Assembly (NCBI RefSeq): GCF_003991135.1
Contig: NZ_CP016379.1
Location: forward strand, 1,116,001 to 1,180,000
Reading direction: 5' to 3'
Length of the DNA stretch: 64,000 bases
DNA from: Anoxybacter fermentans
GTDB lineage: Bacteria > Bacillota > Halanaerobiia > DY22613
Shown: piece by piece, positions 3,168-56,553 of the stretch
Layout of the letters: each line of letters begins with the position of its first letter
How positions within the stretch are numbered: position 1 is the first letter of the stretch
Made by a program: the position numbers and the translations under genes
The notes under the pieces: model-generated
What the model was told of the DNA's origin: nothing
The model's input: the letters and a program-made list of their open reading frames with translations, nothing else
The model's database searches: none

Positions 3168-3179
3168 TAAAAATAAGTT

Positions 3180-3313
3180 AATTAAACTGCAAAAAGTAAA
3201 CATCTTAGTGAGATTGAAGGAGGTAATGAGCTAATCAAGATTACTGAAATTGAACTTTAAATGGTTTGAAAAATTTCTTTTGAAGCAAAAAATTAGCTTT
3301 TCGCAGTAAAAAC
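3180..3313 (+). repeat. Hairpin repeat family, copy B (one-armed)
   Basis: A 134-bp copy beginning ATTAAACTGCAAAAAGTAAA, in which the inner left arm is deleted so the left terminus runs straight into CATCTTAGTGAGATTGAA. The core GGAGGTAATGAGCTAATCAAG and the right arm remain. I see no convincing 6-bp duplication at its edges, which fits an older or rearranged copy. The region 3314-3360 has no other feature. Confidence 0.75.
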
Positions 3314-3360
3314 ATTTTGTTGACAAACCTTTCTTTTTTAGAGACTTGCCCGTGCACTGC

Positions 3361-3497
3361 CAGAAAAACTAAATATAATTTCTTAAACGTATAAGTCAAG
3401 GCTTAAAGCTAAGAGGGCGGAAGCCTTGACTTATAAGAACGCGCAGCCAGGATGGCGAAGCATCCGGTAGCGGAAAAAATTATATTTAGTTTTTCTG
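3361..3497. repeat. Second, unrelated long palindromic element (possible structured RNA)
   Basis: An outer perfect 21-bp stem pairs 3361-3381 with 3477-3497 (CAGAAAAACTAAATATAATT and complement). An inner perfect 15-bp stem pairs 3390-3404 with 3421-3435 (TATAAGTCAAGGCTT). A third small hairpin, GGATG/CATCC, lies around 3450-3466. The flanks also share short similarity (ACTTGC on both sides, inverted). The GC-rich interior is unlike the AT-rich surroundings. No open frame explains it. I do not recognise a known RNA family; it could be a non-coding RNA or a different miniature element. Confidence 0.6.
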
Positions 3498-3589
3498 TTC
3501 CCCTGTGGGAGCAAGTTATGTGTACCTCTCCTTTTTCAACAGCCTGAAGGATAATATATCCCTAAATTTTAGTTCACTTATCAGATTTT

Positions 3590-4232: not shown

Positions 4233-4383
4233 GATTAAACTGCAAAAAGCAAACATCTTAGTGAAATTGAAAAGAATGGCCTTATATAAGGAGGTGATGA
4301 GCTAATCAAGTTACTGAAATCGAACTTTAGATGGTTCGAAAAATTTCTTTATAAAGTAGAAATTAGCTTTTTATAGTAAAATT
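4233..4383 (+). repeat. Hairpin repeat family, copy C (one-armed)
   Basis: A 151-bp copy starting GATTAAACTGCAAAAAGCAA. Like copy B it has lost the inner left arm and keeps the core (GGAGGTGATGAGCTAATCAAG) and right arm. It ends 41 bases before the -35 of the yneB-like promoter. No exact flanking duplication is visible. Confidence 0.78.
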
Positions 4384-4424
4384 ATTTAAATTTTAATTTA
4401 ATTATAAATTTTTTTATAAATATA

Positions 4425-4476: not shown

Positions 4477-4579
4477 TATAATATTGAGAGATCTGTTTTA
4501 TTCAGGTTACTTTGACTCCAATTAGTTTAGGTCAATCTGACCGGTTTATTACAAAAATCAAATGCAAAGGAGGATAAAG

Positions 4580-5232
<653 letters not shown>

Positions 5233-8771: not shown

Positions 8772-8947
8772 TATCTTTCCTCTCCTCCCCTTCTTCCTTC
8801 ACTAATATTTTCACCAGAGAAAGAAAATATCATGACAAATCTTTTCTACTTTATTGGTTATAATAAAATAGTCTTTCCAACATCTTTTCCCTTAGAGATA
8901 ACTATTACTTTAATATCATTTTTCTTTCATCCCATTATCCTTTATAT

Positions 8948-9168
8948 GGTTAAACTGCAAAAAGCTAATTTTTCGCTTCTTGAGAAATTTTTCGAATCAT
9001 CTAAAGCTCGATTTCCGCCGAAATAAGGTTTCCTAATCAAAGGGCCCTTCTGGCCCTTGATTAGCTCATCACCTCCTGTGATGAGGCCTTATTTCGTCGG
9101 AAATCGAGCTAAGATGATTTGGCGAAAAATTTCTATGTCGCTCAAAATTAGCTTTTTGCAGTATAATC
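8948..9168 (-). repeat. Hairpin repeat family, copy D (full-length)
   Basis: A 221-bp full-length copy, reversed relative to copies A, C, E and F. It folds nearly end to end: the outer arms GCAAAAAGCTAATTTT, the middle arms around CGAAATAAGG, and a nested CATCACCTCCTGTGATG hairpin. It is flanked by an exact TTATAT on both sides (8942-8947, 9169-9174). It differs from copy K, 47 kb away, at only 8 positions by my count. Bases 8772-8947 hold only the upstream region of the LmbE-like gene; the 90 bases between D and E contain one tiny ribosome-site-plus-frame remnant. Confidence 0.92.
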
Positions 9169-9257: not shown

Positions 9258-9467
9258 GATTAAACTGCAAAAAGCTAATTTTGAGTTGCTTAACCATCTT
9301 AAGGAGACTGAAAGAAAAATAAGGCCTCATATAAGGAAGTAATGAGCTAGTGAGCTAATCAGGTCAGGAGATCCATTGATTAGTATGCCTTATTTTGACT
9401 GAAATCGAACTTTAGATGGTTCTAAAAAATTTTTTGAAGCGATAAATTAGCTTTTTACAGTAAAATC
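9258..9467 (+). repeat. Hairpin repeat family, copy E
   Basis: A 210-bp copy starting GATTAAACTGCAAAAAGCTA and ending TTTTTACAGTAAAATC, flanked by exact TTTAAT (9252-9257, 9468-9473). The core is partly duplicated (GAGCTAGTGAGCTAATC). It ends only about 20 bases before the ribosome site of the aldo/keto reductase gene, so it forms the immediate upstream region of that gene. Confidence 0.9.
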
Positions 9468-35903: not shown

Positions 35904-36281
35904 TCAAAAGGTAGGAGCTCTTTCAAAATAAGATAACAAAACCGGAAAAACAAAGAATAGGCCAAGGCCCATTAAAATAACTCCTAAAACAATAACCAAT
36001 TTTGAAGTAGTTTTTATTTGCAAAAGTTTTTTACTCTTCTGAACCAGAAGATTGAAAAGGATAAAAGCCAAAAAATATCCCAATTATAGTACTAGCTAAC
36101 AAAATATAAAAATATATACCTCCCCTTTGTTTCCAGAAATGAAGGATAGTACTGCTCACCCCTAACCAGATAACAGAAGTTGCAGGGTTAGTAATTGTAA
36201 TAACAAAACCGGACATAATACATTTAAAAACGGAAGTTGGCTGTTTTTCCTCTGTTTGAGATAGCGATTCGTAGTATAAAT
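35904..36281 (-). pseudogene. LysE/RhtB-type exporter remnant, truncated by hairpin repeat F
   Basis: Minus-strand frame reading LYYESLSQTEEKQ, then SGFVITITNPATSVIWLGVS (typical central LysE motif GFxxxxxNP), then a stop after FQSSGSEE. The homologous tail KLLQIKTTSKLVIVLGVILM continues in another frame to 35904, so there is a frameshift near 36030. The N-terminal part is missing at the edge of repeat F (36282), which seems to have landed in the gene. Bases 35784-35903 hold nothing else. Confidence 0.65.
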
Positions 36282-36485
36282 GATTTTACTGCAAAAAGCT
36301 AATTTTGAGCACCATAAAAATTTTTCGTTAAACCATCTCTTAGTAAGATTTCAGTCGAAATAAGGCCTCATCACAGGATGTGATGAGCTAATCAAGGGTC
36401 AGGATGACCCATTGATTAGTGTACCCTATTTCGACTGAAATCGAATTTTAGATGGCTCGAAAAATTAGCTTTTTGCAGTTTAATC
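36282..36485 (+). repeat. Hairpin repeat family, copy F
   Basis: A 204-bp near full-length copy: starts GATTTTACTGCAAAAAGCTA, contains CCTCATCACAGGATGTGATG, ends TTTTTGCAGTTTAATC. Flanks ATAAAT (36276-36281) and ACAAAT (36486-36491) agree at 5 of 6 bases. Adjoins the LysE-like remnant. The 225 bases to the next gene are AT-rich and empty, apart from a GGAGGAAAAGTG site followed by a very short frame at 36486-36530 on the minus strand. Confidence 0.88.
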
Positions 36486-47342: not shown

Positions 47343-47477
47343 GAATTAAACTGCAAAAAGCTAATTTTGAGCGATATAGAAATTTTTCGTTAAACCATCT
47401 TATTTCGACTGAGATCGAACTTTAGATGGTTCGAAAAAATTCACTATGAAGCGAAGAATTAGCTTTTTGCAGTGTCC
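47343..47477 (+). repeat. Hairpin repeat family, copy I (short form)
   Basis: About 135 bp: GAATTAAACTGCAAAAAGCT at the left; the right terminus keeps TTAGCTTTTTGCAGT but then diverges (GTCCGAAG). It lacks the central module and a target duplication, so the right edge has probably been altered. It lies 18 bases past the rtcB stop. Confidence 0.8.
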
Positions 47478-48913: not shown

Positions 48914-49049
48914 GAAAAATCCTCCTTTCCCTTAGATTATACAGGCCAAAGAAGGATTTTTCAAGATACAGTACTTATGTTCATGATTTCATGGAGTGCT
49001 TTGCTAACAGATCAAATACAAAAAAGAAGATTATGCTTAACTAAATCAT

Positions 49050-49172
49050 GATTATACTGCAAAAAGCTAATTTTGAGCGGCATAGAAATTTTTCACCAAA
49101 TCATCTTGGCGAGATTTAGATGATTCGAAAAATTTCTCAAGAAGCGAAAAATTAGTTTTTTGCAGTTTAACC
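49050..49172 (+). repeat. Hairpin repeat family, copy J (short form)
   Basis: A 123-bp arms-only copy from GATTATACTGCAAAAAGCTA to TTTTTTGCAGTTTAACC, flanked by exact AATCAT (49044-49049, 49173-49178). The intact duplication shows that the short form itself transposed, or lost its centre after insertion. It ends at the stop codon of the Lon-like gene. Confidence 0.9.
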
Positions 49173-56310: not shown

Positions 56311-56332
56311 ATATCAATAGCATTATTTATAT

Positions 56333-56553
56333 GGTTAAACTGCAAAAAGCTAATTTTTCGCTTCTTGAGAAATTTTTCGAATCATCCAAAGCTCGATTTC
56401 CGCCGAAATAAGGCTTCCTAATCAAAGGGCCCTCCTGGTCCTTGATTAGCTCATCACCTCCTGTGATGAGGCCTTATTTCGTCGGAAATCTCGCTAAGAT
56501 GATTCGGCGAAAAATTTCTATATCGCTCAAAATTAGCTTTTTGCAGTATAATC
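56333..56553 (-). repeat. Hairpin repeat family, copy K (full-length)
   Basis: 221 bp, same length and orientation as copy D, about 96% identical (8 differences counted), flanked by exact TTATAT (56327-56332, 56554-56559). The nested CATCACCTCCTGTGATG hairpin is intact. It lies in the 3' untranslated part of the sugar operon. Confidence 0.92.

Follow-up and report, generated by a model that had tools for sequence, protein, structure and literature searches.

Among the mobile elements described so far, IS1272 and TnSha1 are closest to the element reported here. Both have short terminal repeats and enter hairpins or terminators of 21-38 bp (10 copies) that share no sequence consensus. IS1272 replaces its target hairpin (PMC5678879) and the target hairpin of TnSha1 is deleted (PMC4923244), so that, in the portions of these reports that were available, IS1182-type elements are described as aiming at DNA hairpins, with loss of the hairpin and no duplication as the reported outcome. 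The whole stem-loop would be duplicated if the element were joined at the hairpin's 5' foot, which was sketched as the hypothetical pathway b (PMC5678879, same portion); beyond this pathway, no whole-hairpin duplication by an IS1182 element was found in the accessible parts of the open-access literature. The element of Anoxybacter fermentans likewise has short terminal repeats and hairpin or terminator targets without sequence consensus (17-37 bp here), but it carries no gene and the whole hairpin is duplicated. Being small, mostly intergenic, palindromic, multi-copy and non-coding, it also resembles the SPRITE, BOX, QMITE and Chunjie MITEs (PMC10969869), whose account in the available part of that review does not include whole-hairpin duplication; the main text of the review does not use the term IS1182.

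For the window, i.e. the whole stretch of 64,000 nucleotides of A. fermentans DNA that was analysed, the original prediction had reported a two-stem palindrome with a GC-rich interior in AT-rich surroundings. This observation was confirmed. Both the outer 21-bp stem and the inner 15-bp stem are perfect, the 137 nt fold with -60 kcal/mol compared to -25.7 ± 3.2 kcal/mol for 200 shuffles (z -10.9), and 11 perfect inverted repeats (arms of at least 15, within 200 bp) were detected in the window versus none in each of 20 mononucleotide shuffles. The GC content is 50% in the interior, 12% in the outer arms and 29-32% in the flanks, compared to 36% for the window. The interpretation of the palindrome was partly supported. 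A proposed third hairpin does fold in the window copy, but this form is due to mutations of that copy, the family consensus being a hairpin with an AGGAU loop. The limits had been drawn around existing palindromes, but the full unit is longer and extends approximately from 3313 to 3546. The palindrome is indeed a single copy in the window, but not in the genome.

A BLAST search of the genome (3.56 Mb, one contig) gave 68 matches, with several stretches for one copy, and 38 core-bearing places on the sense strand were located with a covariance model of the core (54 matches, 16 of them antisense on the same places). Alignment of 35 copies revealed a common unit of approximately 234 bp, GAGCTTGTTGACAAA...TTTTTCAACAGCCTG, with conservation ending sharply on both sides and with imperfect terminal inverted repeats of 15 bp (GAGCTTGTTGACAAA and CAGGCTGTTGAAAAA). 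No ORF of at least 60 aa overlaps the window copy. From the 38 places, the common ends and the target duplications described below, 'another miniature element', one of the candidates offered at first, proved to be correct. The strong fold of the window copy taken alone would also suit a fixed, immobile single-copy RNA gene or protein-binding palindrome, a reading that is refuted by these copies, ends and many target duplications and to which we assign practically no probability. Two of the checks that had been proposed, a genome search for copies and a covariance search in related genomes, were positive, and the absence of a second copy and of conservation, named beforehand as the refuting outcome, fails because of the 38 places and of two homologues that show paired changes in their stems and belong to another family of the class. 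A DNA search of 61 genomes matched A. fermentans only. A 23-base pattern from the core arm had no exact match in genome_contigs or viral_contigs, and there was no match in the plasmids collection, A. fermentans itself being possibly absent from these collections.

Further fragments of the element include an internally deleted derivative (L069) and a solo right end (L034); the latter was considered as a clue to the parent, but turned out to be a fragment beside an ISL3 gene. About 38 nt with one GGA loop are missing in six copies (L037, L038, L039, L040, L041 and L042), as expected from recombination between the two similar loop regions. In L029 and L033, a second repeat family of the window is inserted at the identical position of the element, and 14 bp of the element (AACTAAATATAATT) were matched on both sides.

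Table 1. Positions of the element, its parts and neighbouring repeats in the window, and of the core homologues.
Feature	Position	Strand	Basis
Whole element, 234-bp MITE copy	3313..3546	+	alignment of 35 genome copies, end finding
Left terminal inverted repeat, degenerate CATTTTGTTGACAAA, family GAGCTTGTTGACAAA	3313..3327	+	alignment
Right terminal inverted repeat, inward CAGGCTGTTGAAAAA	3532..3546	-	14/15 to IS repeat CAGGCTGTTGACAAA
Outer 21-bp stem, 5' arm	3361..3381	+	exact complementarity with 3' arm
Outer 21-bp stem, 3' arm	3477..3497	+	exact complementarity with 5' arm
Hairpin 1 (15-bp stem, 3390-3404/3421-3435)	3390..3435	+	fold, family alignment
Hairpin 2 (family GGACGC GCA GCC-AGGAU-GGC GGA GCGUCC)	3437..3465	+	fold, family alignment
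Small palindrome AAGGATAATATATCCC, right flank	3547..3562	.	window sequence
Degenerate copy of other repeat family, abutting left end	3173..3316 (approximate)	.	similarity
Other repeat family, matched parts	3217-3317, 4288-4387, 8946-9015, 9398-9465, 36278-36466, 47408-47473, 49048-49166, 56331-56400	.	window matches
Core homologue, no visible MITE ends	L169:1501-1636 (G026)		R1 match
Core homologue, no visible MITE ends, TATAAT just upstream	L171:1501-1637 (G026)		R1 match

Both ends were found by script in 30 of the 35 copies, the other five being dropped from the comparison of flanks; four interrupted or fragmentary loci (L029, L033, L043, L044) lie outside the alignment. A flank score of at least 7 was reached by 17 of the 30 copies compared to 1 of 870 mismatched flank pairs, and a score of at least 10 by 14 copies compared to none of the 870. 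We accepted 15 duplications of at least 10 bp, 11 with a length of 17-34 bp and four of 10-13 bp. All 11 longer duplications form a hairpin on each side (p ≤0.057 in mononucleotide shuffles, 0.000 for most), with ACTATATCTTTTTAAAAGATATAGT on both sides of one copy (L024, 25/25), a further 25/25 duplication whose hairpin resembles hairpin 1 of the other repeat family (L010) and a 22/23 duplication (L009). The four short ones do not fold, that of L022 representing half of a palindrome. At the end of the right hairpin, 9 of the 11 hairpin duplications have at least 7 T in 12 nt, as in intrinsic terminators. Of the 35 copies, only 4 are located in gaps between divergent ORFs (simple ORF calls). 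The window copy shows no recognisable target duplicate and stays below a score of 10, as do 16 of the 30 copies in all. The small palindrome in its right flank is possibly the remnant of a target hairpin, the left duplicate of which was not found; the copy of the other repeat family abutting the left end may have removed it.

An element with similar ends is present in A. fermentans itself as a decayed insertion sequence (IS), with the ends CAGGTTGTTGACAAA...TTTGTCAACAGCCTG and transposase fragments (L089, 1649-3176); a second right part of it was detected in L090. Its 152-aa fragment gave no Pfam match at E≤0.001, but DNA-level searches did match. Relatives were sought with a stop-free fragment of this IS and with the protein of L135, the latter matching 8 of 59 genomes, and the loci examined comprised seven in a genome of the same class (G033) as well as L139, L143, L134, L135, L136 and L137. 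L135 from Paludifilum halophilum encodes DUF772 and DDE_Tnp_1_6 on two overlapping frames, has the ends GAGACTGCTGACAAA...TTTGTCACTAACCTC and shows a whole-hairpin duplication (23/23). In G033, all six copies for which the retrieved DNA included both ends are flanked by exact duplications (19, 26, 34, 24, 27 and 37 bp), each of which contains a complete hairpin, and the seventh copy (L160), represented by its right flank only, shows a hairpin there. Unbroken frames of 541-550 aa were found in three of the six copies with duplications (L138, L146, L151), and the DDE_Tnp_1_6 domain was detected in L134, L137 and L138. With the 19/20 duplication of L139 (G054, 502-aa frame), whole hairpins are duplicated in all 8 related IS copies that could be read at both ends. 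Hairpins also form the right flanks of L134 and L137 (Marinithermofilum abyssi); in L136 and L143 no clear pair of ends was seen.

Compared to the terminal repeat CAGGCTGTTGACAAA of the G033 copies, the right end of the MITE agrees in 14 of 15 positions and the left end in 12 of 15. As the interior of the MITE was not seen in any IS, the link between them rests on terminal repeats and target behaviour. No intact IS with MITE-type ends was found in A. fermentans among about half of the 31 PF13751 places, for which the ends were checked. The 521-aa PF13751 IS was rejected as parent, the copies examined (L079-L088) ending in GGGGCTGTCCC, and so were the 551-aa copies L173 and L174; at two other PF13751 places (L095, L097), neither end type occurs within 3 mismatches. 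The pair of DUF772 and DDE_Tnp_1_6 is one that we take to point to IS1182, and from domains, end type and target behaviour the responsible transposase is probably of the IS1182 type.

Therefore, from the copies, the ends and the whole-hairpin duplications in MITE and related IS, the element is very probably a non-autonomous MITE mobilised in trans by a hairpin-duplicating, IS1182-type transposase (DUF772 + DDE_Tnp_1_6). This enzyme would recognise the ends of about 15 bp and select a DNA hairpin by its shape, often a terminator-like one and presumably extruded as a cruciform. The element would be joined at the hairpin's 5' foot on both strands, so that subsequent repair would leave a complete hairpin on each side. 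A hairpin-sized duplication fits such a reaction at both 5' feet of a hairpin that is extruded, and the elements look like the outcome of pathway b (PMC5678879, available portion). In place of the deletion typical for IS1272, a hairpin was found on both sides of MITE and IS copies. Here, a group of related IS and a MITE following this group duplicate the entire hairpin, with a duplication length set by hairpin size. Duplicating and deleting elements represent a matched pair for asking what decides the outcome, and an element of the duplicating kind can enter terminators without destroying them.

The preference for such sites might also be read as a terminator or attenuator cassette kept for the benefit of the host. 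At least one ORF ends towards the element in 31 of 35 copies, and many copies have terminator-like flanks. Since the related IS show the same flanks, these are explained by target choice, and the copies decay mainly by GC-to-AT change, both of which make a cassette very unlikely.

The interior of the MITE has features of a structured RNA. The family consensus folds into an outer 22-bp stem and two hairpins with the apical loops AGGAG and AGGAU. Both AGGA loops are kept in 19 of 35 copies; the window copy keeps the second only (AGGAT at 3449-3453) and has AAGAG for AGGAG at 3411-3415. Among 23 perfect hairpins in the window (stem of at least 8), GGA touches the loop in one on the + strand and in six on the - strand, and three of these seven represent the same hairpin of the other repeat family. 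The core resembles the TwoAYGGAY RNA (RF01731), which was proposed as CsrA-binding (PMC4333381, available part). Both have an outer stem around two GGA-loop hairpins and a CGGU-GCG-like stretch after hairpin 2, but the loop of hairpin 1 in the core is AGGAG and not AYGGAY, and the core sits within a MITE. Full-length alignment to RF01731 gave 23.9 bits for the window copy and 26.9 and 26.1 bits in 2 of 12 loci, and only 2 of the 12 reach even E≤10; because these scores are below the gathering threshold of 43 bits, the element is not filed under this family. Neither the window copy of the element nor any of 20 loci matched Rfam at gathering, and weak matches to snoRNA and sRNA families were taken as chance.

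In a search of 59 genomes of the class with a covariance model made from 22 copies (R1), using filters by which weak matches may be lost, the only matches outside A. fermentans were two full-length places in G026, a member of another family of the class (63.3 and 57.6 bits; antisense matches in A. fermentans itself do not exceed 50 bits). Their loops are AUGGAC and AGGAC, the GGAAG joiner is kept, and both sides are changed in 19 of 48 pairs, which none of 500 shuffles reached. These paired changes are supportive of an RNA, but not conclusive, because they come mostly from two related rows and from an alignment fitted to the model; 'structured RNA', another of the initial candidates, may hold for the core in this sense. 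The own copies decay mainly by GC-to-AT change. Slow stems in a rate table of all 35 copies were discarded, as truncated copies had inflated the ends, and rates were determined relative to a base-corrected mean from 19 copies that remained of 26 after removal of 7 truncated or rearranged rows. Stems change at 0.78 of this mean (bootstrap 0.69-0.87), compared to 1.16 (1.04-1.25) for the ends. The higher value of the ends results from the right (1.39) and left spacer (1.15), whereas the terminal repeats have values of 0.91 and 0.75. The claim that perfect stems indicate constraint is thus weakly supported, most changes being GC-to-AT decay. Neither G-U-keeping changes (100 C>T versus 79 G>A, no clear preference) nor compensatory changes within copies (14 double A-T versus about 11 expected, no clear excess) stand out. 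This pattern fits mostly neutral copies from a source that may have been constrained.

A function could be added to the MITE, without replacing that reading, if the core is a CsrA-binding RNA sponge turned mobile, in which the two A-GGA hairpins would bind a CsrA dimer and transposition would multiply the sites. The consensus loops CAGGAGG and CAGGAUG are comparable to the CsrB repeats, CAGGA(U/A/C)G, and to the ANGGAN loops of RsmE sites (PMC7652899, available part). The decoy RNAs CsrB, CsrC and RsmZ have hairpin loops of the same CAGGA(U)G type, but many sites compared to two candidate sites in the core. The layout is that of RF01731 with 24-27 bits over the full model, the GGA loops are kept in the G026 homologues despite the paired stem changes, and the GGA of hairpin 2 shows 0 changes versus 3.9 expected in 19 copies. 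A. fermentans has one CsrA place (80.5 bits), which adjoins a flagellin gene and FliW; a fliW gene beside csrA is typical for CsrA control of the B. subtilis type. However, CsrA of B. subtilis is known to be antagonised by FliW, and CsrA SELEX rarely gave very stable hairpins (PMC7652899, available part). The low RF01731 scores also argue against the sponge, as does the lack of any RF01731 match at E≤1 for the G026 homologues. The GGA of hairpin 1 shows no special conservation (3 changes versus 3.9 expected in 19 copies), the two loops survive together in little more than half of the copies, G-U pairs are not clearly favoured, and a consensus scan finds no promoter on the GGA strand of the core. 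Binding of CsrA by the core is therefore, in our opinion, somewhat improbable, and the mobile sponge as a whole is doubtful. The TwoAYGGAY-like core would connect a mobile repeat with CsrA in a way that experiments can address.

The most surprising aspect is the occurrence of two sequence-unrelated repeat families with a two-GGA layout in one genome. The other family has at least 40 scored genome copies, and its 82-row consensus shows a long outer stem and two hairpins with the loops GGA (CACAGGATGTG) and AGGAG. The palindrome had been described as having no similarity to this family, which is true at the sequence level (R1 gave one partial match of 18 bits in 18 loci and none further) but not for the layout, an outer stem with two GGA-loop hairpins being common to both. 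One copy of the other family (G000, 3463418-3463572) passes TwoAYGGAY with 51.7 bits. As no other RF01731 place at E≤0.001 was found in A. fermentans or elsewhere among 59 genomes of the class, TwoAYGGAY is failed by most members of the other family too. That both families carry a two-site CsrA-binding RNA, with transposition setting the dose of a global regulator, seems unlikely to us; if true, the present family, by duplicating the hairpins and terminators that it enters, would place the RNA between two terminators, where read-through would express it.

Several observations concern other elements of the genome. About 20 places carry the PF13751 IS of 521-551 aa with the ends GGGGCTGTCCCAAAA (L079-L088, L173, L174); in several copies, an A-run precedes the left end and a T-run follows the right end, which would suit an IS1272-like replacement of a terminator hairpin, whereas L173 is flanked on either side by TTTTTAACAGAGTTAAAGAA, a duplication that includes a small palindrome. 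Short palindromes of two facing IS-type ends, which look terminator-like and resemble the left IS end of G033 and L089, were detected in L071 (reverse strand, CAGGCTGTTGACAAAGTTAGAAGGTCAACAGCCTTTTT), L073 and L098. In the window, two neighbouring ORFs at 4562-5232 resemble, from the ORF list, the halves of one split serine recombinase.
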